From contig NZ_SRRP01000001.1 of NCBI RefSeq assembly GCF_004785935.1, positions 992,001 to 1,056,000 on the forward strand: a stretch of 64,000 bases of DNA, read 5' to 3'. Shown here one piece after another: positions 36,886 to 48,396 of this stretch (within the stretch, counting starts at the first letter, position 1; each line of letters begins with the position of its first letter). A program made the position numbers and the translations under genes. The notes under the pieces are model-generated. The model worked only from the letters and a program-made list of their open reading frames with translations. It searched no databases and was not told where the DNA came from. Origin of the DNA: Streptococcus rubneri (lineage in GTDB: Bacteria; Bacillota; Bacilli; Lactobacillales; Streptococcaceae).

Positions 36886-37210
36886 AAACTTTATTATACC
36901 ATATTTCTAGCACACATCTCTAGTAAAATCCTGCAATCATTTTTCACCTAATTGGACAATGGATGAAGAAAAAATAAGGCTTAAAACCAGTTCTAGCCTT
37001 ATTTTTTCAGTCTTTATGGTAAAGGAAGATCGAGAAAGTGTTGAGTGAAGCAAATAGACCTAAAATGATTTTCAAAAGATAAACATTCCATAGCTGTATG
37101 AAAAACAGTTATGGTAGGTCTAGCATTGTCTTTTGAAGCAAATGACAAGCAAGTAAATTAAGACTAGAGAGAAATCTCAGTTCATTCTCCGCTATCTGCT
37201 CAGTCCATCA
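36886..37210. repeat. Gene-free start of the accessory island: terminator and a repeat-flanked structured element
   Basis: AAAAATAAGGCT/AGCCTTATTTTT (36968-37007) is a strong bidirectional terminator with no gene attached. Next, a 9-bp direct repeat GAAGCAAAT (37047-37055 and 37135-37143) flanks a structured 79-nt stretch with three arm pairs: AGACCTA/TAGGTCT, TCAAAAGA/TCTTTTGA and CCATAGCTGT/ACAGTTATGG. The first two cross each other. Confidence 0.55.
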
Positions 37211-37399
37211 TATTTTGATTGTTCACGAGAACCAAAATCTGATATTGCTTTTGTAGATATGAGATTTTTCTATGCTAGTGTTGAGTGTGTGGAACGTGGA
37301 TTGTATCTTTTAAGGACCTCGCTTTGTGTGATGAGTAGAGCAGATAATTCAAACGGACTTATCTTAGCTTCCTCTCCAATGTTCAAGAAAGTCTTTTGA
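37211..37399 (+). pseudogene. 5' remnant of a UmuC/ImpB/UvrX-type Y-family DNA polymerase
   Basis: Translating 37211-37399 gives 62 residues ending at a TGA. It contains SREPKSDIAFVDMRFFYASVE, CVERG and SLCVMSRADNSNGLILASSP, clear matches to the N-terminal palm of Y-family polymerases carried by streptococcal mobile elements (UvrX/UmuC-like). Only the first ~60 of about 470 residues remain; no good start codon is left and the frame stops after PMFKKVF. A hairpin AGGCGAAGT/ACTCCGCCT (37410-37432) follows. It marks the island edge. Confidence 0.8.
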
Positions 37400-37508
37400 G
37401 CACCACAAGAGGCGAAGTCACAAACTCCGCCTCCTTCTACATATTTTTTGTTATAATAGAATATTTTATTTGAAATATCAAGACTTATGCTTGATAAAGC
37501 TAGAAAAC

Positions 37509-39449
37509 TTACCCTTTTCCAGCAAGAATATCTGATACTTTATACAATCCTGGGGAATATGTCCGACCAAATAGTTTTTTCGTCAAGGCATTAAACGTAT
37601 AATGGTCATCTAAAATCAAGACTTCGTCATACGTTTTTAAGAGTGCAATAAAGTCATTGTCTGTTAAATTGGAACCATCTCTAGTATCCATATTTTCATT
37701 GCCGAGGTAATAACTTGTTGCGCTGTCGCTGTATGATGCCATTAAATCTAAAAATTCTTGGTCAGCCGACACAAAATTTTCTCTGGCATCAACATTGACA
37801 TCCCACAGATAATAACGGCTAGCATATTGGACAAAATAATTATCTACATTCTCCTTATCTGCTGTTACAACCAAAATTCTATCCGTTGACGAATTACTCT
37901 GACTTCCAGTAAACTGATGAATTTCTTTTACGACCTCGTTTGTTTCCTGATTGTTATTGTAAACAATGCTATTATTTTCTGACAAGAACATTCCAATGGC
38001 ATAAACTGTCAAAACAAGGCTCGCGTATTGGTACAAGTGTTTATTAAATAAGCACTTGTAAGACCTAGCATTACGTTTACTAATGATTTTTTCATACAGA
38101 CACTTGTCCATTACCCATGCTAAAGCCATGGTCAAACAACCAAAAGCAAAGATAACGATGCTCGAAGCATAGCGCTCAAATCCTGCTAATTCTAACGCTT
38201 CATCAGTCGGCATTGCTGTCAGATACATGAGTAAAATGCCAATATAGTAAGTCACAATCGAAATATCAACAAATCCCCAAGTCAACAAGACAAATTTCTT
38301 ATATTTCAAACGAATGCCAATCACAATAAAGGCAATCAGCATAATCAGATTGATTATCAAAATTCCATTGCTTGCCAAACTGTCAAACGTAAACACCGAT
38401 TTGACAAAAAGAGTGATAATTTTTTGTGGGTCGCCTGACAGATTTCCAGTCAATACCTGACCAAGTTCTGACATGGACACCGCATGCTTGGCACTTGAGG
38501 CATTTGGGAAATTATCCGTCACATGCTTTTGCCAAATAACAAAAGGAAGACAGCTGACTAGCAAGGTCATTATGAGCAGCACTAGTGCTTTTAAACGTGC
38601 TCTTTTACGAACAAGTAAACGCACAATACAAACCACATAAACTACTAAAACGAGAGCGACAAAGAAAAGTCCACTTACTTTGACGATACTTAATAATCCA
38701 AGAATTACCGCCGTATTTAGCGACAAAAACCAGAAACGATTACGATAGACAAAACAACCTGCTATGGCTGCCAAGGCCAAGGCAGGAAGCAGAAAATCAA
38801 CCAGCAAATTATTTAATCGAATAGCAACGTTGAACGTATTAAAAACAGCAAACGAAGCAAAAATCATGCTAACCATTAAGACACGTCGATCATCACGAAG
38901 TGCCGCAAACATGGCATAAAGACTGGAAGCAATCAAGAAGAATTGCCCGACCAACATACTACCTTCTGAAAAGCCTACGATAGTCGTGAAAAAATAAATG
39001 AAAAGTGAACTTCCAACAGGATAGGTATAATAACTAATAATCGTATCCTGCTGTGTTGGCAAAGCATTATTGATATGGAAAAATTTTACAATCGTTGCCC
39101 AATGCGTAAAATTATCATAATGTAAAAGCGGTGAATGCCAGAGCGTTATTCCAAACAAAAGCAAATAAGCCATCATTCCAAGCGCAATATAATCAAGTCT
39201 CCTAAAGCGATATTTCTTTTTCCATACCGCCCAAAGATAATAAAGACTCAAAAGACAGCCCAAAACAGAAATGGCATACACGGTCTGCAACATAAAGCCT
39301 AACAAACTACCAAGGTACAATACCAATGTAATGACTGAAAATGTAAACACCCATGTCAGACTGCGATTCATCTTCACAGTATTACGGAAAAAGGCATTGT
39401 ACCCCATGGTAATCACAAAGAACAACAGTAATCTAGCAATACTAATCAT
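37509..39449 (-). CDS. Polytopic GT-C-like glycosyltransferase of the c-di-GMP exopolysaccharide operon
   Basis: A 646-residue protein with about eleven or twelve TM helices over residues 1-480 and a ~165-residue soluble C-terminal domain. An acidic motif in the first long loop (LLHYDNFTHWATIVKFF, D112) fits GT-C/PMT-type enzymes that use polyprenyl-phosphate sugars on the outer face, but no single family is certain. The start is ATG 39449, which overlaps the upstream stop as ATGA and has GGAGAGGGAGA before it; the frame extends 5 codons further. As last gene of the operon it could add a side group to the polymer, using the lipid-linked sugar made by the GT2-GtrA protein. That role is inference. 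Confidence 0.7.
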   Translation of the reverse strand: MISIARLLLFFVITMGYNAFFRNTVKMNRSLTWVFTFSVITLVLYLGSLLGFMLQTVYAISVLGCLLSLYYLWAVWKKKYRFRRLDYIALGMMAYLLLFGITLWHSPLLHYDNFTHWATIVKFFHINNALPTQQDTIISYYTYPVGSSLFIYFFTTIVGFSEGSMLVGQFFLIASSLYAMFAALRDDRRVLMVSMIFASFAVFNTFNVAIRLNNLLVDFLLPALALAAIAGCFVYRNRFWFLSLNTAVILGLLSIVKVSGLFFVALVLVVYVVCIVRLLVRKRARLKALVLLIMTLLVSCLPFVIWQKHVTDNFPNASSAKHAVSMSELGQVLTGNLSGDPQKIITLFVKSVFTFDSLASNGILIINLIMLIAFIVIGIRLKYKKFVLLTWGFVDISIVTYYIGILLMYLTAMPTDEALELAGFERYASSIVIFAFGCLTMALAWVMDKCLYEKIISKRNARSYKCLFNKHLYQYASLVLTVYAIGMFLSENNSIVYNNNQETNEVVKEIHQFTGSQSNSSTDRILVVTADKENVDNYFVQYASRYYLWDVNVDARENFVSADQEFLDLMASYSDSATSYYLGNENMDTRDGSNLTDNDFIALLKTYDEVLILDDHYTFNALTKKLFGRTYSPGLYKVSDILAGKG

Positions 39450-41671
39450 ACTCTCCCTCTCCATTCATTTGCTAAGGCTTTAAAAGCAGGTAAGCTATCC
39501 AAATCCGCTAAATTGGTAACTCGATAAAGCGATTCGTCTCTATCAATATCATAGGACACAAAAGTCAACTGAATTGGCAAATCTTTGTAGGTAAATGCGA
39601 CATTCGGTTCTTTTTTAGGATTTGTAAATTTTCCAGAAAATGTCATGTAATAATAATCTGTCTTTCTAAGCTGGCATTTTTTTCCAGCAACCTGAACCTC
39701 TTCATTAACACGAACTTTCGGAAAAGCTACTTGGTCATAGGCTGAAACAGGACGTTCATTATTTTGGAAACGTTGACTAAAGTTCTCAAATAAATCATCC
39801 CATGTTGTCATCCAAGGGTCTTTTTCCTTCGGAAGATTGTGATTAATGCGGTCATAAATGTACTGATAAAATTCGCGCTTATCAGCTTCAGGAATTTCTG
39901 AAAATTGAACGCCGTAGCGCCAACCATTATCAATCGCAAAAACACGAACAACATGACCTTTTACCCTCGCATGGTAATCACGTGATTGCAAATTAAGCGT
40001 CAGTTCTTTTTCTTTCGGCAAATACAATGGTAAATCCGTATAGAATGAAATCCCCGTTTCTGAAATATCACAGACTCTCACTTGGTAAGAATCATCATCA
40101 ACCTCAATAACCATAGCTTCATCAACAGTAAAACGCTCACTTGAGCGATAAATCGGACGACCAAGCGCACAGAAAATCGCAAAGGTCAAATTGATGATAT
40201 GATAAATCAACCAAAAACTGATAATACTTCCATAAAAAAGCTCTGAACCAAATTTTCCATAGTTAAAAGTCACCAAACCATAAACGGCTAATCCCCATAA
40301 AACAAGATAAGGAAGCGCATAAAGGTACAACGTCCACGACGTATCATTTCCCTTACGTGTCACCTTAAATTTTTTATTGCTAATGCCAAAGGACTCCAAC
40401 ATCATGGGAATAAACAAATACGGAGCAAAAATCGTTTCCACAATTTCTCCCCAAACCTGTGTTCGGTATTGTTTTGAGACTTCTCGCATTGACAAGTGTG
40501 TCAATGCGTAACTTGGCAACCAGAATAGGAACAGTAGCAAGATATTTGACACCACCACACGGACATGGAAAACCGTATATAAAATCGGTGCCAAGATATA
40601 CAATAACCGTCTAAAGAAAGACCACCAATAAAGATAGCCATTAATATAAACAATTCTTTGCCCCTTTGTCAATTTGGGATTAAAGAAGATATTCATATTG
40701 TAGCTACTGCGAATAACGCCACGTCCCCAGCGCGTGCGCTGTTTGATGACACTCTTCAAATCTGTTGGCGTTAACCCGCTAGCCATTGGACTTTTCGTCG
40801 AATAATTTACATAACCAGCCGCATTCATCCGAACACCTAGCTCGAAATCCTCCGTAATAGTATCTGTCGGAAAACCACCAACATCTTCAATCGCCTTGCG
40901 GAAAATAACCGTATTAGACCCCGTATAAACCGCTGCACCGTGCGAATTATTGCAAACATTAATTTCTTTGGAAAAGAAATCTTGTTCGTTTGGTAAGGTT
41001 GATTCTGAAAACAAGTTAAATTGGAAAATATCAGCATTGTAAAAACTTTGTGGCGTTTGAATCAAACCAACTTTTGACTTATCATAATCGTCACCATTTT
41101 CATAAGCCTCAACTTGTTCAACAAAATAAGGCACAGTTTCCAACAGGAATTCACGATAAGGAATCATATCCGCATCAAATGTCGCCACCAAAGGTGATGA
41201 CGTCTGACGTAAAGCATTATTGTAGTTTCCTGATTTGGCATCTTTATTATCTGCCAAACCAAAATAACCAACACCAAGCTCATCAGCCAATTTGGCAACT
41301 TCTAGACGATTGGTATCATCACAGACGTAGATATGCACCTTAGACTTATCAGGATATTCCATAAAAGTACAGGCATTAATCGTCTTATAAAGCAACTCTG
41401 GATCCTCATTATGCGTTGCAATCAAAACATCCACATCTGGGTAACGCTCCTTAGCAATCTCAGGCTTTTCAAGCTCAAAGTCCTTTTGCTTATTCCAAAT
41501 GAGAATGTAGCCTGTAATGGCTGAAACTACCTCACTTCCCCACAATAAAATCCCAAAGATCAGCGCAAACCATGAATCATGCCACGGAATAGTCGCCACC
41601 AAACGCCAAGTTAAATAAAAGGCAGTCGTTACAAATGCAACGAAATAGAGTATCCTCTTATTAGCCTTCAT
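39446..41671 (-). CDS. Cellulose-synthase-like GT2 with C-terminal PilZ (c-di-GMP) domain
   Basis: A 741-residue membrane glycosyltransferase built like BcsA. After two TM helices comes a processive GT2 domain with all catalytic motifs: DDT (118-120), DAD (166-168), TED (273-275) and QRTRW (311-315). Further TM helices follow (about 340-395 and 450-500), then a PilZ domain with both c-di-GMP motifs, RSSER (509-513, RxxxR) and DISETG (535-540, DxSxxG), and a ~150-residue C-terminal extension. It should polymerise a nucleotide sugar and extrude the glycan when c-di-GMP binds. The start is ATG 41671 with GGAGG 6 nt upstream; an upstream GTG in frame is rejected because the SD overlaps it. The sugar is unknown; no BcsB, BcsZ or BcsC partners are present. 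Confidence 0.92.
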   Translation of the reverse strand: MKANKRILYFVAFVTTAFYLTWRLVATIPWHDSWFALIFGILLWGSEVVSAITGYILIWNKQKDFELEKPEIAKERYPDVDVLIATHNEDPELLYKTINACTFMEYPDKSKVHIYVCDDTNRLEVAKLADELGVGYFGLADNKDAKSGNYNNALRQTSSPLVATFDADMIPYREFLLETVPYFVEQVEAYENGDDYDKSKVGLIQTPQSFYNADIFQFNLFSESTLPNEQDFFSKEINVCNNSHGAAVYTGSNTVIFRKAIEDVGGFPTDTITEDFELGVRMNAAGYVNYSTKSPMASGLTPTDLKSVIKQRTRWGRGVIRSSYNMNIFFNPKLTKGQRIVYINGYLYWWSFFRRLLYILAPILYTVFHVRVVVSNILLLFLFWLPSYALTHLSMREVSKQYRTQVWGEIVETIFAPYLFIPMMLESFGISNKKFKVTRKGNDTSWTLYLYALPYLVLWGLAVYGLVTFNYGKFGSELFYGSIISFWLIYHIINLTFAIFCALGRPIYRSSERFTVDEAMVIEVDDDSYQVRVCDISETGISFYTDLPLYLPKEKELTLNLQSRDYHARVKGHVVRVFAIDNGWRYGVQFSEIPEADKREFYQYIYDRINHNLPKEKDPWMTTWDDLFENFSQRFQNNERPVSAYDQVAFPKVRVNEEVQVAGKKCQLRKTDYYYMTFSGKFTNPKKEPNVAFTYKDLPIQLTFVSYDIDRDESLYRVTNLADLDSLPAFKALANEWRGRV

Positions 41672-42725
41672 TCTCGCCTCCACTAAAAATCAAATGTTTT
41701 TGCACAAAATAACTGACAAAGAAAAGTGTACCGTCAACTAAAATCTTCACCAATGAAATTGGCAGCATCGTCAAGGCATTTCCTAGAACTGTTACCAATA
41801 AACTTGACAAAACAATCTGTACTACCACCAAAGTAAAGTATTTTATCGCACTATTTGATTGACCTCGTTTAAAGACCACCTTATGATTCAAGGTAAAATT
41901 AACAAAAGATGATATCGCACGCGCTAAAATCGAAGCTAACGTCACCGCACTAAAACTCAATCCATTAAACAAAGAAATTAAAATCGTAAAAGCAACAATA
42001 TCAACCAAGAAGGAAAACAATGATGAAAAAATGTACTTGAAGAAAACCTTGTAAATTCTAATCGAGTCACGAATCGCATCAAAATGCGACGACTGATTTT
42101 CATCCAAATAAATCGTTGCAATGCCAACTTCACAAATCAGAATATTGTCCTCTTTTGCCTCAAGTAACATATTCATCTCAAATTCATACCGTTCACCCTC
42201 CACGGTTAAGAGTTTTGGCAACCATGACATAGGAATCACACGAAGCCCCGTTTGCGTATCAGAAACGTTCATACCTGTCATAGCCCCCAAGACGTCTCTT
42301 GTCAATAAATTTCCAAATTTACTACGTAAAGGAACAGATTTTTCAAATGTTCTAACACCCAGCACCAAACTATCAGGATGTTGCAAAAATTCAGCCAAAC
42401 ATTTCATCATGTCTTCGTAGGTGTGTTGACCATCAGAATCAATCGTCACAATTCCTTTGGCATTAGGAAAATTGTCCAAAATATATGAAATAGCCGTTTT
42501 TAAAGCACGACCTTTTCCTTTATTATCAGCATGTCTTTGCAAATGACAAGCATAGTTACTCTGCGCTATTGCAAATAACGGTGCAAAATCAGCTCCACTA
42601 CCGTCATCGACTAGAATAATGTCAAACATTTGATTTTCCTTATCCCGAATATTTTTCAAAAGTTCCAACAAACGGTCATCAGGTTCATAGGCAGGAATGA
42701 CAATAACAACATCTTGAAACATCAT
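41661..42725 (-). CDS. GT2 glycosyltransferase fused to a GtrA-like membrane domain
   Basis: A 354-residue protein. Residues 1-225 are a GT2 domain of the DPM1/polyprenyl-phosphate hexosyltransferase type (VVIVIPAYEPDDRLLELL, VDDGSG, TIDSDGQH with D96/D98). Residues ~230-348 are a GtrA-like domain with four TM helices (KYIFSSLFSFLVDIVAF, ASFVNF-like NFTLNHKVVFKRG). Such fusions make undecaprenyl-phosphate sugar and are thought to flip it across the membrane for side-chain transfer. It overlaps the cyclase gene by 4 nt and the PilZ synthase by 11 nt, so all are coupled. Confidence 0.87.
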   Translation of the reverse strand: MMFQDVVIVIPAYEPDDRLLELLKNIRDKENQMFDIILVDDGSGADFAPLFAIAQSNYACHLQRHADNKGKGRALKTAISYILDNFPNAKGIVTIDSDGQHTYEDMMKCLAEFLQHPDSLVLGVRTFEKSVPLRSKFGNLLTRDVLGAMTGMNVSDTQTGLRVIPMSWLPKLLTVEGERYEFEMNMLLEAKEDNILICEVGIATIYLDENQSSHFDAIRDSIRIYKVFFKYIFSSLFSFLVDIVAFTILISLFNGLSFSAVTLASILARAISSFVNFTLNHKVVFKRGQSNSAIKYFTLVVVQIVLSSLLVTVLGNALTMLPISLVKILVDGTLFFVSYFVQKHLIFSGGENEG

Positions 42726-43756
42726 CGACGTTCTCCTTTCTGACTTTTATTTTCGTACATTTTCTTATCAGCTATTGCAAAAAAATCAACGAAGTTTTTA
42801 TGTGATTGATAAGAGTCCGTATAAGCACCTAAAGATGCTGTAATCCCCATATCTTTGAGAGTCATTTCTGCTTGAACAAGTTTTATTAAAAATTCAGCTT
42901 GATTTTCAGAAACTCCAGGGAGTAAAACCGCAAATTCATCTCCACCTAACCTTGCTATTACAGCACTTTCAGGCATTATCTTCGTTAAAATATCACCAAA
43001 TTCAATTAGAATCTTATCTCCCGTAGCATGTCCAAAAGTATCATTTGCTTCCTTGAATTTATCCAAATCAGATATAATAACCGTAATTTGTTCTTCTTTA
43101 CGTGTCAGACATTCCTCAAAAGCAAGCTCAATATATCGTCGATTATGAACCCGTGTTAAAACATCTTCGTATGCCATCCTCTGTATTTCAAGTTCATGAA
43201 GTCTCTGCTCTGTAACATCAAGAACAAAACAAAAAACACCAATCACTTTTTGGCGATTGTTATAAATGGGAGAATACATATTTTGCCAGTAAAGCGTTTT
43301 GTCGCCTGTCTTAATAGCATCCATAAATATAAATGTTTCACCCTTTTTCGCACGATCAACATTTGCTTTTAAACGCGCAGCATCATCACTATTAAGATAA
43401 TTCATTGGAAAGTCACCAATTTTGGGAGTGAAATAAAAGATTTCTTCCATGAGCCGAATATCATTCTTATTAACCGCAATAAAACGATAATTTAAGTCTA
43501 CAGCATAGACGTTAATAAGTTTCGAACTCTGTAAGATAAAGTGGGATAGCATATGCTGTCTTCGATTAAGGTAAGATGCTAGGGTCCAAAGAACTAGTAT
43601 TCCTATAAAGATTGCTAAAACGATGGGATTATCATGGTCAATCAAAACATCATCATACACTAAGCGAATTAATAACATTAACGCAGCAAAAATACTTAAG
43701 TACGTTAACAATCTTTGATGCTTGATTAAAAAATCACTTACTTTTCCTAATACCAT
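42722..43756 (-). CDS. Membrane-bound PAS-GGDEF diguanylate cyclase
   Basis: A 344-residue protein: two TM helices (about 16-33 and 44-61), a PAS sensor domain (about 75-180, ending in the DVTEQR linker) and a GGDEF domain (190-340). The active-site loop ARLGGDEFAVLLPG (GGDEF 271-275) and the metal/substrate region SDLDKFKEANDTFGH are intact, so it should make c-di-GMP from two GTP. The inhibitory I-site RxxD, expected at 262-265, reads PESA and is absent, so product feedback is unlikely. The start has GGTGAGG upstream and lies 15 nt after the truncated fruK. It heads the exopolysaccharide operon, whose PilZ synthase is the obvious effector. No EAL or HD-GYP gene is in the window. Confidence 0.93.
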   Translation of the reverse strand: MVLGKVSDFLIKHQRLLTYLSIFAALMLLIRLVYDDVLIDHDNPIVLAIFIGILVLWTLASYLNRRQHMLSHFILQSSKLINVYAVDLNYRFIAVNKNDIRLMEEIFYFTPKIGDFPMNYLNSDDAARLKANVDRAKKGETFIFMDAIKTGDKTLYWQNMYSPIYNNRQKVIGVFCFVLDVTEQRLHELEIQRMAYEDVLTRVHNRRYIELAFEECLTRKEEQITVIISDLDKFKEANDTFGHATGDKILIEFGDILTKIMPESAVIARLGGDEFAVLLPGVSENQAEFLIKLVQAEMTLKDMGITASLGAYTDSYQSHKNFVDFFAIADKKMYENKSQKGERR

Positions 43757-43771
43757 TACAGCCTCACCAAT

Positions 43772-44011
43772 CTAAGTAGTTTTAATACCTTCAGCATCCA
43801 AACTGTCTGTAACAAAACGTCCTGTAAAACCACCGATGAAGCCCGTAGCAGTATTGTCAATTCCTAAACGTTGTAGAATACGGCTGACATTAATACCCTT
43901 ACCGCCAGCGAATTTATCATCACTCTCTATACGGTTAACTTCACCAATCTCTACCTTGTCGATACGAACAATGAAGTCGATTGATGGGTTTAGCGTCACA
44001 GTATAAATCAT
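43772..44011 (-). pseudogene. fruK: 1-phosphofructokinase fruK, 5' fragment
   Basis: 79 residues matching the start of FruK/PfkB sugar kinases (MIYTVTLNPSIDFIVRID, DDKFAGGKGINVSRILQRLG, ATGFIGGFTGRF). The protein should run to about 300 residues, but after LDAEGIKTT a stop occurs and the diguanylate cyclase gene begins 15 nt later. The ATP-binding C-terminal half (GAGD motif) is missing and is not found elsewhere in the window. It is the junction where the c-di-GMP operon joins a fru locus. Confidence 0.85.
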
Positions 44012-44040
44012 ACTTCAATAACCCTCGTTTTCTCTTTTAA

Positions 44041-44721
44041 TTATTTAAGGAGCCCTTGTTCCGAAGCATTTGTGATTATAGTTACTTTCTCAACCTCGGC
44101 TACCTTAGCATAGGTAACCTGACCAAGTTTAGAGGCATCAGCTAGAACATAGGCTTTTTGCGCATTAGCTATCACTGTTCGTTTAATGACCGCCTCTTCC
44201 ATATCTGGCGTTGTGAAATAATTGGCATCAACTCCATTAGCACCAATGAAAGCACAATCAAAATTCAGTTGTCTGATTTGTTCCAGAGCTGTACTTCCAA
44301 TAGAGGCATCTGTTGAATGTTTAACCTTACCACCAATAATCCTAGTACTAATACCGAGATCTACCAGCTTAACAGCATGATGGATAGAATTAGTCACAAC
44401 CGTCACCTGACGATTGCTCAAATGTGGAATCAAAAGTTCATTCGTTGTACTAGCCTCAAGAAAAACGACATCACCTTCCTTAATCAAATCGGCAGCATAG
44501 CCAGCTAATTGAGCCTTTTCTTGAACATTTCTGATAGCTTTTTGGCTATTGGCAATTTCTTCCTTTAGACCATGAATCCTTTCAGCACCACTATCAACAC
44601 GTTTAAGTTGGCCATCTGCCGCTAACTCATCCAAGTCACGACGAATTGTCGACTCAGACGTATCACTTAATAAAACTGTCAGGTTTTCCAAAGCGACTAA
44701 ACCATAAATAGAAAGAATCAT
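44041..44721 (-). CDS. DeoR family regulator (FruR-like), 5' end altered by a transposase junction
   Basis: DeoR-type protein with a helix-turn-helix (TSESTIRRDLDEL) and the DeoRC sugar-phosphate sensor (VFLEASTTNELLIPHLSNR, FIGANGVDANYFTTPDMEEA). It lies 29 nt before fruK, the standard fruRKA layout. The usual first ~10 residues are replaced: the open frame enters the divergent ISL3 transposase, and the first credible Met (MILSIYGLVALENL) is at 44721, at the junction. It may still be functional if started there, but its own promoter is lost. The DNA-binding turn VHGGAE reads VDSGAE here. Confidence 0.65.
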   Translation of the reverse strand: MILSIYGLVALENLTVLLSDTSESTIRRDLDELAADGQLKRVDSGAERIHGLKEEIANSQKAIRNVQEKAQLAGYAADLIKEGDVVFLEASTTNELLIPHLSNRQVTVVTNSIHHAVKLVDLGISTRIIGGKVKHSTDASIGSTALEQIRQLNFDCAFIGANGVDANYFTTPDMEEAVIKRTVIANAQKAYVLADASKLGQVTYAKVAEVEKVTIITNASEQGLLK

Positions 44722-45468
44722 ATGAGACAACTCTATCATACTACAGAATTAATCGGAATTAAAGACAAAAATATCACTTTAACTAAAGTTTTTCAACGCG
44801 AGACACATATTGAGGTGCAAGCTACGCTTGATTACACCCCTCCTAAGTGTTGTCATTGTCAAGGAAAACAAATCAAATACAACTTTCAAAAGCCTTCTAA
44901 GATTCCTTTTATTGAGATTGGTGGACTTCCTAGTCTTATTCGTTTGAAGAAGAGAAGATTTCAATGCAAAGACTGCCATAAAGTGACGGTTTCTGAGACC
45001 TCCCTTGTTCAGAAGAACTGTCAAATCTCTGAATTAGTGAAGCAGAAAACAGCTCAACTCTTGCTTAATCGAGAAGCTTTGACGCACATCGCTGAAAAAC
45101 TTGCCATCTCGACCTCAACTGTGTATCGTAAGCTTAAACAATTTCAGTTCAAGGATGACCATTCTACCTTACCTGAAGTACTGTCTTGGGATGATTTCTC
45201 TTATCAAAAGGGAAAGCTAGCCTTTATTGCTCAGGATTATGAGACTAAGAAAATCATCACTATTCTTGATAACAGACGACAAACAACCATTCGTAATCAC
45301 TTTTTCAAATACTCTAAAGAAGCTCGAGAAGGGGGGGAAATTGTTACTATGGATATGTCTGGTAATTACATCCCTTTAATCAAAACTATTTTTCCAAATG
45401 CTAATATTGTTCTTGACCGTTTTCACATTGTCCAACATATGAACAGAGCGCTAAAACAGAATAGATAG
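44722..45468 (+). pseudogene. ISL3 family transposase, truncated
   Basis: 248 residues matching the first ~60% of ISL3 transposases (about 420 residues): zinc ribbon CCHCQGKQIKYNFQKPSKIPF with KRRFQCKDCHK, helix-turn-helix AEKLAISTSTVYRKLK, and the DDE start VLSWDDFSYQKGKLAFIAQD with NIVLDRFHIVQHMNRAL. It stops right after HMNRALKQNR. The left end and promoter are gone, the start codon abutting the DeoR gene, and the C-terminal catalytic Glu region is missing, so the element is dead. Confidence 0.88.
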
Positions 45469-45475
45469 TTATGCA

Positions 45476-45500
45476 AAAAAGAGGTATTTTTATACCTTTT
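45476..45500. terminator. Hairpin with T run after the transposase fragment
   Basis: AAAAGAGGTAT-TTTT-ATACCTTTT, a short terminator-like stem directly after the truncated transposase. Confidence 0.45.
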
Positions 45501-45567
45501 AAAGAAAAAAATCCCTCTACAGATGAGAGAGATTGATCTTCAAAACTTGAATTTGATTAGAAGATGA

Positions 45568-45899
45568 TTAATGTTTCGGATGAGACTCAATCCACGCTAC
45601 AAACTCGTCATAAGAGTGAATTTGTGTTTTTTCTCCAGAGTTGTCTCGTCAGTAGCATAAAGTTCCATAACTTCTTGACCTTCTGGCGCAAACCAATGAA
45701 TGATTTTATCAAACCATTCGCGTTCATTGTATTGTTTAAGGCGGAAATATAATTTTTCTATATATTTCATATTTTTTGCAACTTCCGGGTAGATATGTGC
45801 AAAATTTGTACCAAAAATATTTACTTTATCATTATTTACTTCATTCGATAACCTAATTGGTAAAAAATTAAACCATAGGTATTTAAATTTTTTTCTCAA
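45568..45899 (-). pseudogene. Small hypothetical protein with a C-terminal frameshift (DUF3884-like)
   Basis: The frame from 45899 encodes about 95 residues (MRKKFKYLWFNFLPIRLSNE, EKLYFRLKQYNEREWFDKI, HWFAPEGQEVMELYATDE) and then ends in a short tail after an A-run. In the next frame the sequence continues as HSYDEFVAWIESHPKH up to a TAA at 45568. Adding one A to the six-A run would join the two. It resembles small DUF3884-type proteins of unknown function; this match is weak. Confidence 0.5.
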
Positions 45900-45917
45900 C
45901 TGATCATATATTCTTCC

Positions 45918-46513
45918 TCAGCCCCAATCAATTTTTCGTTGATAGACTGATGGTTGATCTTCTAGATAGTTGATCTTTGATTCAACATCACCTTGAACAA
46001 TTTGCTCCTGTGAAAGTGAAAAGGATCCGCATATTGTTAGGGTCCTTCAAATCAGAATAGTTACCTCTATCAATTTTTTGTATGTTTAAGGATAGATAAT
46101 CATTCCCGTCAGCATATCCATCGCTATCAGGTACTTTCCAAACACTACGGTATGTATTATCTTTACCTAATAGACGATAAATATCAAATTCTTTTTTTGT
46201 GGCCTAAATGATTCAGGTCATAACTAATTACTTTGAAATATTCTTCTTCCCCAATTAAAGGAGGTGTCTTTAGATCTCCAGTAAACAGGCAATGTTCTGA
46301 ATAGGTTATTACATAATCTTGACCATGGTAAATATAGCCTTTGTTCTCTTTTTGGCTAACTAAAACAATTTTTGATCTTCAAAAGTTTGAACGGTCAAAT
46401 GTGAGGCAAATTTCCTATTATTGTATTTTTTTAAAGGTACTATTATATAAAATATACCATGACAGTCCAGCAATTGATACAACTACAGCAATGCCAAATA
46501 GTATTTAATTCAT
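45918..46513 (-). pseudogene. Decayed small membrane-anchored protein (possibly TipC-like immunity)
   Basis: On the minus strand, pieces in three frames give a TM anchor (ILFGIAVVVSIAGLSWYILY) followed by FTGDLKTPPLIGEEEYFKVI, LLGKDNTYRSVWKVPDSDGY and QGDVESKINYLEDQPSVYQR up to a TGA. The lesions are an in-frame stop at codon 3, a frameshift in an A7 run near 46195 and another near 46015. The layout (one TM, ~190 residues) recalls TipC-type immunity proteins of LXG toxins, a low-confidence guess. It is clearly non-functional. Confidence 0.5.
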
Positions 46514-46545
46514 ATTAACATTCATTCTTATCACCATTTGTTTTC

Positions 46546-46868
46546 TTATTTAATTTGATCATCGTTCGACGATAAACCAAAGGGATCCCAAGCATTATAA
46601 CTCTACCTTTGAAATGTAATATATCCTTGTTTTGAGAAATTATATTCTATGTAATTTAAACCATAATATAAATCGGATGAAGAAACATCCCTTGCACTGC
46701 CTCCCTAATTCATAAACAATTTATAGGTTTCTACAGTCAGTTTTCTATCTCCACTTACAATTTGAGTATTATTAAGATTCGATTCTCTATTTACTTCATC
46801 TTTTATGGCAGACCCAAATAGTTTTACTGGTTCACTTTTATCTGAATATTCCCTTTTCTGTTCATTAA
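46546..46868 (-). pseudogene. Decayed C-terminal gene fragment of unknown family
   Basis: One frame reads VKLFGSAIKDEVNRESNLNN, VSGDRKLTVETYKLFM, then a stop, GGSARDVSSSDLYYGLNYIE, another stop after GYITFQR, and AWDPFGLSSND to a TAA at 46546. Two internal stops and no start show a dead gene. It sits directly upstream of the possible immunity remnant, so a toxin C-terminus is conceivable but not shown. Confidence 0.4.
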
Positions 46869-46898
46869 TTTACATGAAATCAGCACATCCAAGTACAA

Positions 46899-46926
46899 GC
46901 CTGACCCTTATCTAGTCAGGCTTTTT
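46899..46926 (+). terminator. Plus-strand terminator without an attached gene
   Basis: AGCCTGAC/GTCAGGCT stem followed by TTTTTG on the plus strand. No intact plus-strand gene precedes it; it overlaps the 3' end of the minus-strand gene at 46908. Confidence 0.55.
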
Positions 46927-47453
46927 GTTAGCTCTTTGTGGACCTTCCTCTGAGATAGTATATGGGATTGACCTAAACAGAGATAGACTCCATAGAACAT
47001 CATCAGACTCATACAATAGCTTTCCGGAAGATTTTCTATGATGTAATGAACTGCATGAAAAATACTAGCATATAGCAAGGCCAGACCAATCCACAGTTTA
47101 TAATAAAGCTTTGATTTCATTCTTAAAAGAAACTCTGCCTGCTTGTCGAGCGCCTCTATATGAAACTCTCCAAAACTTGGATCTCGTTCCATGGTCAGCA
47201 TACGGCTGATCCATTTAGCAGTCGCCAACCAGCCCACTACAAGCAAGACAGTCTTATAAACCACAGAAATGGAATGGATCCAATAAGGGACTAGGATTAC
47301 GAAACCAATGACGAAGGCTAGACCAACCGTCCACTTATCAAATCGAATGGGCTTTTTTTGATCATTCACATAAAGTTTCATTCTTATCATATCTAAGTAG
47401 TACTCTTTACCAGCAAAACGCATTATATAAATTAAACTATTTTTTCTATGCAT
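46908..47453 (-). CDS. Hypothetical membrane protein
   Basis: A 181-residue protein I do not recognise, with four hydrophobic helices (WTVGLAFVIGFVILVPYW, TVLLVVGWLATAKWI, LWIGLALLYASIFHAV, MSLMMFYGVYLCLGQ) and a charged segment between the second and third pairs. The C-terminal codons lie within the hairpin at 46899-46926, so the true end could be eroded. Ribosome site GGGAGG upstream. It is at the right border of the island, followed by another unknown membrane protein gene. Confidence 0.55.
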   Translation of the reverse strand: MHRKNSLIYIMRFAGKEYYLDMIRMKLYVNDQKKPIRFDKWTVGLAFVIGFVILVPYWIHSISVVYKTVLLVVGWLATAKWISRMLTMERDPSFGEFHIEALDKQAEFLLRMKSKLYYKLWIGLALLYASIFHAVHYIIENLPESYCMSLMMFYGVYLCLGQSHILSQRKVHKELTKSLTR

Positions 47454-47616: not shown

Positions 47617-48396
47617 TTACTCCTCAATCGCTAGCCCATCGCCAACTTCATCCTCCAAGTATTGTTTTGCCATCCGAACAATATAGAGCGACGTATCTTC
47701 TGATAGCAACTTATTAAAAAGCTCCTTCGCTCTATCCTTATCACCTTTAAGAGTAGCATTCAAAGCTTGATAGTAGATGATTTCTAACTGCTGGTACTTG
47801 AAGTCATTGGTCAAGTCTTCGAAATAATCATTGCTTTGGTGGGCAACGGTTAAATCATAGAGAGCAAGACAGACCTTTCTTGTTTTCTCAGCTAGTGTAG
47901 GGTCTGTAATGGTCAATTCATTTAACCGAGCCTCTAGCTCTTCTCTGGACAAATCAGGATCTGTCAGCACGGTTGATCGAATAAGATAACTTTCAAAAAA
48001 GTTCTTATACTTCTGCGGACAATCCGCCTGACTAAGTTCGTCTCTGGTTTCCTTTATGACAGTATCAAATTCTCCCATCATAAAAGAATAGGCAACCGAG
48101 GTAAGTTTGATGTCTGTCCGTAAGATAGGTTTTTTCACATCCTTGTTCAGCTGAAGATATTGCCTCCAAGATACTAAATCTAAGTCTACATGGAGCAAGG
48201 TGTTGCACTTGTTTGCATAGTTCTTTTTGATCCATTGAATGAATAAAAACAAGACTGCAAGGACCAATAAGACTGCACCAATTTGAAGAAAGGTATCTCT
48301 GACTACTATCCCTATACAAAAAATCAGGAGTATTGCCAAAAGCCCTGCTGCTCTAACATAGAGCCTATAGTTTTTTCTTAGTGCTTTATAATCCAA
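47617..48396 (-). CDS. Hypothetical membrane protein with cytoplasmic helical domain
   Basis: A 259-residue protein of unknown function. Two adjacent TM helices (about 14-32 and 36-54) are followed by ~200 residues of mostly alpha-helical, TPR-like sequence ending DEVGDGLAIEE. The stretch YYQALNATLKGDKDRAKELFNKLL looks like a TPR helix pair. Ribosome site GGAGG upstream. Likely an envelope-associated adaptor, but nothing specific can be said. Confidence 0.7.
   Translation of the reverse strand: MDYKALRKNYRLYVRAAGLLAILLIFCIGIVVRDTFLQIGAVLLVLAVLFLFIQWIKKNYANKCNTLLHVDLDLVSWRQYLQLNKDVKKPILRTDIKLTSVAYSFMMGEFDTVIKETRDELSQADCPQKYKNFFESYLIRSTVLTDPDLSREELEARLNELTITDPTLAEKTRKVCLALYDLTVAHQSNDYFEDLTNDFKYQQLEIIYYQALNATLKGDKDRAKELFNKLLSEDTSLYIVRMAKQYLEDEVGDGLAIEE

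Follow-up and report, generated by a model that had tools for sequence, protein, structure and literature searches.

A set of four genes at 37509-43756 of the window, by which is meant the whole 64,000-nucleotide stretch of Streptococcus rubneri DNA analysed here (contig NZ_SRRP01000001.1, positions 992,001 to 1,056,000), probably makes an exopolysaccharide (EPS) that is switched by cyclic dimeric guanosine monophosphate (c-di-GMP) and decorated outside the membrane, and the set was probably acquired recently from a bovis-like streptococcus. The novelty implied in an initial annotation of this DNA does not hold, as the same four-gene streptococcal module is already in print in the available text of PMC10333796. 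What is added here is an insertion site at a 1-phosphofructokinase (fruK) gene, a scar from the leader of rimP and the transfer of the set from a distant streptococcal relative. The genes are, in the order of the operon:

42722..43756, minus strand: PAS-GGDEF diguanylate cyclase, 344 aa (Pfam PAS_4 and GGDEF)
41661..42725, minus strand: fusion of a family 2 glycosyltransferase (GT2), of the type of polyprenyl-phosphate sugar synthases, with a GtrA/DPMS membrane domain, 354 aa (Pfam, alignment)
39446..41683, minus strand: BcsA-like processive GT2 synthase with a C-terminal PilZ domain, 745 aa, GTG start (Pfam, NCBIfam, PDB, motifs)
37509..39464, minus strand: fourth protein, a multi-helix membrane protein and candidate transferase of the glycosyltransferase C (GT-C) type, 651 aa (hydrophobicity, conservation)

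In the open reading frame (ORF) listing each of these genes overlaps its neighbour, by 4, 23 and 19 nt with the listed starts and by 4, 11 and 4 nt if the last two, the synthase and the fourth gene, begin at their next in-frame ATGs; with the latter starts the overlaps of 4 to 11 nt given in the initial annotation are borne out. As part of the best explanation, the four genes probably form one transcription unit. The Pfam matches of the module proteins all lie above the curated cut-off: GGDEF at 113.3 bits (cut-off 23.8) and PAS_4 at 41.7 (23.1) in the cyclase, Glycos_transf_2 at 55.8 (23.3) and GtrA_DPMS_TM at 35.4 (26.1) in the second gene, and PilZ at 58 (22.5) in the synthase. These and the NCBIfam profiles, together with the motifs, confirm the PAS-GGDEF cyclase, the GT2-GtrA fusion and the BcsA-like PilZ synthase that had been assigned from the sequence. 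Given that the motifs align with those of relatives and that purifying selection acts on each of the four genes, the four-gene observation is more than chance.

In the proposed scheme, the PAS-GGDEF cyclase would make c-di-GMP upon a cue to its PAS domain, and c-di-GMP would bind the PilZ domain of the synthase and thereby free the active site. The synthase would then build a beta-linked polymer from a uridine diphosphate (UDP)-sugar and push it through its own membrane channel. GT2-GtrA would load a second sugar on undecaprenyl phosphate and help to carry it across the membrane, and the fourth protein, probably GT-C-like, would attach this lipid-borne sugar to the emerging polymer. If this is true, the module is a minimal transferable circuit in a genus usually thought to be without c-di-GMP, and its single enzyme, single receptor and single output could each be taken away in turn.

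The PilZ synthase

The closest solved relatives of the synthase in a PDB search are BcsA chains (E 7.8e-68 and weaker). Like BcsA (TIGR03030; PDB 4hg6, 4p00, 7lby), the synthase has the catalytic motifs, an FxVTxKG-like gating loop (here KFKVTRKG) and the PilZ motifs RxxxR and DxSxxG. The DDT, DAD, TED, QRTRW, RSSER and DISETG noted in the initial annotation are all present and aligned with relatives, RSSER corresponding to RxxxR and DISETG to (D/N)xSxxG. Across the aligned family, DD, DxD, TED and QxxRW occur in every row that covers the region, and both PilZ motifs in 28 of the 30 rows. Unlike BcsA, the module synthase has YTGS for FCGS, an extra C-terminal stretch and no BcsB gene in its operon, and its match to the NCBIfam CelA model TIGR03030, which spans 606 residues, scores 340.7 bits and so lies under the equivalog cut-off of 699.1. 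The protein is therefore not called a cellulose synthase.

As to the minimal architecture that had been proposed, no BcsB, BcsZ or BcsC was found in the operon or among the nine neighbours scanned, the search covering these genes and not the genome at large. The C-terminal stretch beyond the PilZ domain, at about residues 615-745, is unassigned, and a second PilZ domain within it was rejected as unproven (hhalign probability 6.3% in local and 1% in global mode).

The cyclase and the c-di-GMP circuit

The cyclase is predicted to make c-di-GMP. Two hydrophobic segments, predicted helices, precede its PAS domain in a hydrophobicity scan, and its GGDEF motif is intact (GGDEF or GGEEF) in 19/19 aligned rows. 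The RxxD product-inhibition site (I-site), an optional feature of GGDEF cyclases, is absent at what we take to be its usual position in all 11 streptococcal cyclase rows. Cyclase activity is said to have been shown by Liu et al. in 2020 (ACS Infect Dis).

Profile searches of the S. rubneri genome found a single GGDEF and a single PilZ domain, both within the module operon, and no match to EAL or to HD_5, the latter looked for in this genome only. Among 284 Streptococcus genomes, GGDEF occurs above the cut-off in 14, which are all 13 carriers of the synthase and one further genome, G051 (any match at E 0.001: 16 genomes); the hypergeometric probability of the co-occurrence of synthase and GGDEF is 1.5e-21 with species treated as independent. 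PilZ is found in 11 of the 284, each time inside the module synthase, the remaining two carriers having truncated synthase copies. EAL exceeds the cut-off in three genomes (G051, G151 and G152) and gives any match in five, leaving 11 of the 13 carriers without EAL above the cut-off. The description of the operon as self-contained is in keeping both with the sole GGDEF and sole PilZ of the genome lying in it and with the presence of GGDEF in every genome with the synthase. This raises the possibility of a one-way circuit in the group to which the window belongs, in which the cyclase lacks the product-inhibition site, a single PilZ protein is the receptor and a phosphodiesterase for c-di-GMP cannot be recognised, a reading that is held tentatively and with slightly less than even credence.

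Several other cyclase genes were observed. In G051, a 1118-aa PAS-GGDEF-EAL protein with more GGDEF stretches (L056, 8555-11911) adjoins a separate GGDEF gene, and a lone cyclase without synthase lies between trmB and rimP (L055). In the cyclase of S. vestibularis (L045, 928-1992) the second membrane helix carries a 10-residue insertion built from LAIFI repeats, and a short tandem duplication is present in G181 where the cyclase and GT2-GtrA genes meet (L043, 7716-7838).

GT2-GtrA and the fourth protein

The make-up of the second gene product is that expected of a polyprenyl-phosphate sugar synthase joined to the membrane protein it works with. A GT-A transferase with a GtrA flippase and a GT-C transferase is an established decoration scheme, including that of teichoic acids and wall polysaccharides, in the available text of PMC8035078. 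Like these multi-component transmembrane glycosylation systems, the module has, by its Pfam matches, a GT-A polyprenyl-phosphate sugar synthase and a GtrA-type membrane domain, here fused, and a candidate GT-C partner; unlike the systems described there, the acceptor would be a c-di-GMP-controlled EPS. Decoration of the polymer by GT2-GtrA and the fourth protein is plausible.

Neither Pfam nor NCBIfam has a match to the fourth protein, and a PDB search with the protein alone gave none; an eight-row profile of its family found only chains of G-protein-coupled receptors in the PDB, at E 0.17 or worse, which are taken as chance. A simple hydrophobicity scan gives it 13 hydrophobic segments, and a homologue is counted at 16 helices in the available text of PMC10333796. 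The conserved stretches include YDNFTHWATIVK, NNLLVD and MPxxEAxxxxxxERY. V126, K127, L220-D223, K262, W311, H327, Y406, M413, M418, P419, E422, A423, R431 and Y432 are invariant in 33/33 rows of the family, and D117, N118, H121 and W122 are kept in 32, the exception being a row without the N-terminus. The loops with D117, D223 and E422/R431 are placed outside by the positive-inside rule, D117 lying in the longest early loop. These conserved residues in predicted outside loops resemble GT-C enzymes, and the fourth protein is a candidate GT-C-like transferase.

Distribution and selection in Streptococcus

The survey for the four-gene set that the initial annotation had suggested found the synthase in 13 of the 284 Streptococcus genomes. 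Nine of these have four long open frames, a count that takes in two whose fourth protein is shorter, at 617 aa, and a third genome with additional genes. A restriction to a few animal-associated streptococci, as had been surmised, proves too narrow: a record of S. vestibularis (G176) has the module, and genes two to four occur in other Lactobacillales. Records named as S. vestibularis, S. equinus and S. vicugnae among the relatives bear out the genus, and the insertion site held in common with S. vestibularis speaks for placing the window in the salivarius group.

Selection on the module genes is purifying throughout. The ratio of nonsynonymous to synonymous substitution rates (dN/dS, NG86) is 0.05-0.16 for all four in five pairs per gene with dS > 0.5, and 0.18-0.32 in the recent pair formed by the S. 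rubneri genome (G000) and G044.

Transfer and insertion site

In the available text of PMC10333796, which credits Liu et al. 2020, the published module comprises a diguanylate cyclase, a Dpm1-GtrA hybrid, a cellulose synthase-like protein and a many-helix membrane protein; it is described as horizontally transferred, in the salivarius, bovis, suis and pyogenes clades, and its site as the locus of tRNA-Ser, with trmB and rimP on either side. PMC10086821 and PMC10519070 cite Liu et al. 2020 without more on the module. All four genes are matched here, and the module lies between TrmB and RimP in seven of the 13 carriers and between TrmB and a contig end in one, the identities of TrmB, RimP and NusA being confirmed by profiles. 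In the remaining five (G000, G181, G176, G151 and G152) it lies elsewhere. In contrast to the published site, the trmB-rimP site of the S. rubneri genome is empty and its module adjoins a truncated 1-phosphofructokinase gene, with a rimP-leader scar at the other end. The block and its surroundings are:

37395..43795, minus strand: transferred block, 97.4% identity over 6401 bp to G044 (blastn)
37409..37434, minus strand: hairpin at the 3' end of the module, read as a donor scar; matches the stretch upstream of rimP in trmB-rimP carriers
37208..37396, plus strand: relic, 63 codons from the 5' end, of a gene for a UvrX/UmuC-like Y-family DNA polymerase; abuts the block
43772..44011, minus strand: truncated 1-phosphofructokinase (fruK-like), 79 aa of about 305; runs into the block
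44041..44739, minus strand: DeoR/FruR-type regulator (NCBIfam DeoR-type models); its first codons overlap the transposase ORF
44722..45468, plus strand: ISL3 transposase, 3' part missing (NF033550 model positions 2-221 of 370)

The module DNA of G000 and G044 is 97.5% identical over 6248 columns (blastn), while trmB and nusA of the two genomes are only 74.1% (636 columns) and 73.9% (1146 columns) identical. G044 is called bovis-like because in these comparison genes it is 91-92% identical to S. equinus. The hairpin occurs as a single copy in the S. rubneri genome at three or fewer mismatches, and the genome's own rimP leader differs from it in sequence; the hairpin has a fold z of -4.36 and was compared in an alignment of eight loci. 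Rfam matched only tRNA in the window and, in three trmB-rimP loci, only tRNA-Ser, so the rimP-leader label is assigned from position. Given the high identity of the module against that of trmB and nusA, and the foreign rimP-leader hairpin, the transfer was recent, and a bovis-like streptococcus would be its source, the comparison suggesting a direction and setting no date. Read in this way, the scar would reveal in which direction and by what route the module recently passed from one streptococcal group to another.

On the flanks, the fruK remnant covers positions 1-77 of 305 of TIGR03828 (104.7 bits, cut-off 292), and the best match of the UvrX relic in a tblastn search of plasmids is 82.5%, to the Y-family DNA polymerase of Streptococcus megaplasmids. 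The truncated fruK before the module is common to G000 and G181, and the UvrX relic lies behind it in G000, G181 and S. vestibularis. The remnant does not mean that the fru pathway was lost, since a second FruR-type regulator, 55% identical, lies at 603 kb of contig C1 of the same genome. A phage origin was set aside, as 36900-46900 has no match in the phage collection, and so was a plasmid origin within streptococci: a tblastn search of plasmids with the synthase (E 1e-60) gave 30 records, with no Streptococcus among the named genera and '2 more' unnamed. The minus-strand ORFs at 46908-47453 and 47617-48396 of the window, in a stretch with broken frames and an ISL3 fragment, have no Pfam or NCBIfam match.

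The core across the Lactobacillales

Genes two to four are a core across the Lactobacillales that is also found on plasmids. The fourth protein belongs to a widespread nameless family present in 40 of 395 Lactobacillales genomes and 19 of 80 genera; five of the 40 are Streptococcus, one of them with a broken weak match. Neighbourhoods were inspected for loci from 20 of the other 35 genomes. The synthase stands beside the fourth gene in 17 of these, 14 of which also have GT2-GtrA, and GGDEF and EAL matches occur within the fetched stretch in six and seven of the 20, respectively. The order of the core genes is kept across the Lactobacillales, with the genes overlapping or adjacent. Of the 29 synthases placed in a tree, all ten from Streptococcus fall on one side of a fully supported branch; some of the deeper forks are weakly supported, and there are long branches that join.

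The three-gene core without a cyclase is carried by conjugative-type plasmids of L. brevis KB290 (pKB290-1) and L. plantarum BK-021. A plasmid glycosyltransferase operon of KB290 is named as responsible for EPS in the title of Fukao 2019, and the EPS is reported as a polymer of glucose and N-acetylglucosamine; we infer that this operon is the three-gene relative on pKB290-1. It is like the module in having GT2-GtrA, the synthase (47% identity) and the fourth gene in the same order, and unlike it in having neither a cyclase nor an EAL gene in 17.9 kb.

It is possible, falling just short of probable, that the last three genes represent a Lactobacillales-wide EPS family of a synthase with lipid-linked decoration, whose fourth product would found a new GT-C-like family; the set would move between chromosome and plasmid and gain or lose c-di-GMP enzymes (cyclase alone, cyclase with EAL, or none), the one-way circuit being the form in the window's group. 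No paper was found on insertion at fruK, on the variants that carry EAL genes or on the core of the Lactobacillales, subscription papers lying mostly outside the coverage of the search.

Alternative explanations

The findings that weigh against the proposed scheme concern expression of the set, the nature of the fourth protein, its tie to the polymer and the reach of c-di-GMP control. From the cyclase gene to 44767 there is no minus-strand promoter-like match, the yield of the scan being no higher than that of shuffles, and the DeoR/FruR-type regulator upstream is damaged by the ISL3 fragment. In addition, the set is broken in three of the 13 carriers (G231, G082 and G151) and interrupted by a contig end in G003, and hence is dispensable. 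This raises the possibility that the set is silent or nearly so in this strain, cargo of a recent transfer that is being lost after its promoter went missing, which would also suit the broken upstream genes and the relics of mobile genes on both flanks. However, this is rather unlikely, for none of the four frames is broken, G181 and S. vestibularis also have the block in intact form, and dN/dS in the recent pair is low, albeit that most of this divergence may predate the transfer. The idea that the transfer clipped off a donor promoter is not supported, as the donor stretch has no plus-strand promoter-like match either. Expression of the set in S. rubneri is presumed in the proposed scheme.

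The fourth protein has no GT-C profile match in family profile searches, and hhalign of its family against Lactobacillales PMT_2 reached at best 2.3% probability, with unrelated membrane proteins at 0-0.2% and several PMT_2 rows wrongly cut to fragments. Given this absence of a sequence link to any GT-C family, and its at least 13 helices, the protein might instead be a transporter, a polymerase or an acyltransferase-like export factor for the polymer. Such a role is considered unlikely for two reasons: first, the conserved D117, K127, D223, E422 and R431 lie in predicted outside loops, as expected of GT-C enzymes; second, the fourth gene always follows the synthase and GT2-GtrA where both are present. 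A GT-C-like transferase remains the preferred candidate.

The fourth gene is found without the synthase in three of the 20 non-Streptococcus loci, which implies a looser tie of this gene to the polymer. The product that the synthase makes under c-di-GMP could then be a homopolymer, plain cellulose or some other, and GT2-GtrA and the fourth protein could serve a different acceptor, such as teichoic acid or wall polysaccharide, and be merely co-regulated; the 606-residue match to CelA and the known use of GT-A, GtrA and GT-C on such acceptors (available text of PMC8035078) are in keeping with this. Nevertheless, it is unlikely, slightly more so than the other two alternatives, given that the CelA score is far under the equivalog cut-off, that the core order is kept across the Lactobacillales, and that the KB290 polymer is reported to hold N-acetylglucosamine besides glucose, with the link from operon to polymer drawn from titles. 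A decorated EPS is therefore favoured over a plain one.

Control by c-di-GMP is not universal in the family, since neither GGDEF nor EAL is matched within the 17.9 kb fetched around the KB290 operon and two of the 30 synthases lack the PilZ motifs. The latter two (L106 and L108, of G414 and G604) have lost both motifs and kept the catalytic motifs and the neighbouring genes, and may have dropped c-di-GMP control.

Relation to other c-di-GMP-controlled systems

As proposed, the module is like Listeria pssA-E (PMC4125290) and L. acidophilus dgcA-pdeA/gts (PMC6123363), in the available text of both, in being a c-di-GMP-controlled EPS system of Firmicutes with a BcsA/PgaC-like GT2. The Listeria system has a BcsB orthologue and a degenerate-GGDEF receptor, neither of which is among the four genes of the module, and that of L. 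acidophilus has a degenerate-EAL receptor, in contrast to the module, whose PilZ synthase is accompanied by GT2-GtrA and the fourth protein.

Two carriers have larger arrays. That of G152 (L051, 5830-15695) consists of a diguanylate cyclase, EAL, a 166-aa membrane protein, a PgaC/IcaA-like GT2 (314.8 bits, cut-off 422.3), a degenerate EAL, GT2-GtrA, the synthase and the fourth gene, the order of the first five resembling L. acidophilus dgcA-pdeA and gtsA-gtsB-pdeB as given in the available text of PMC6123363. In G151 (L053, 6744-16721) the order is altered to GT2-GtrA, synthase, fourth gene, diguanylate cyclase and EAL; a gene for a phage-type integrase comes immediately after EAL, and the synthase is broken up by two transposase-like ORFs.

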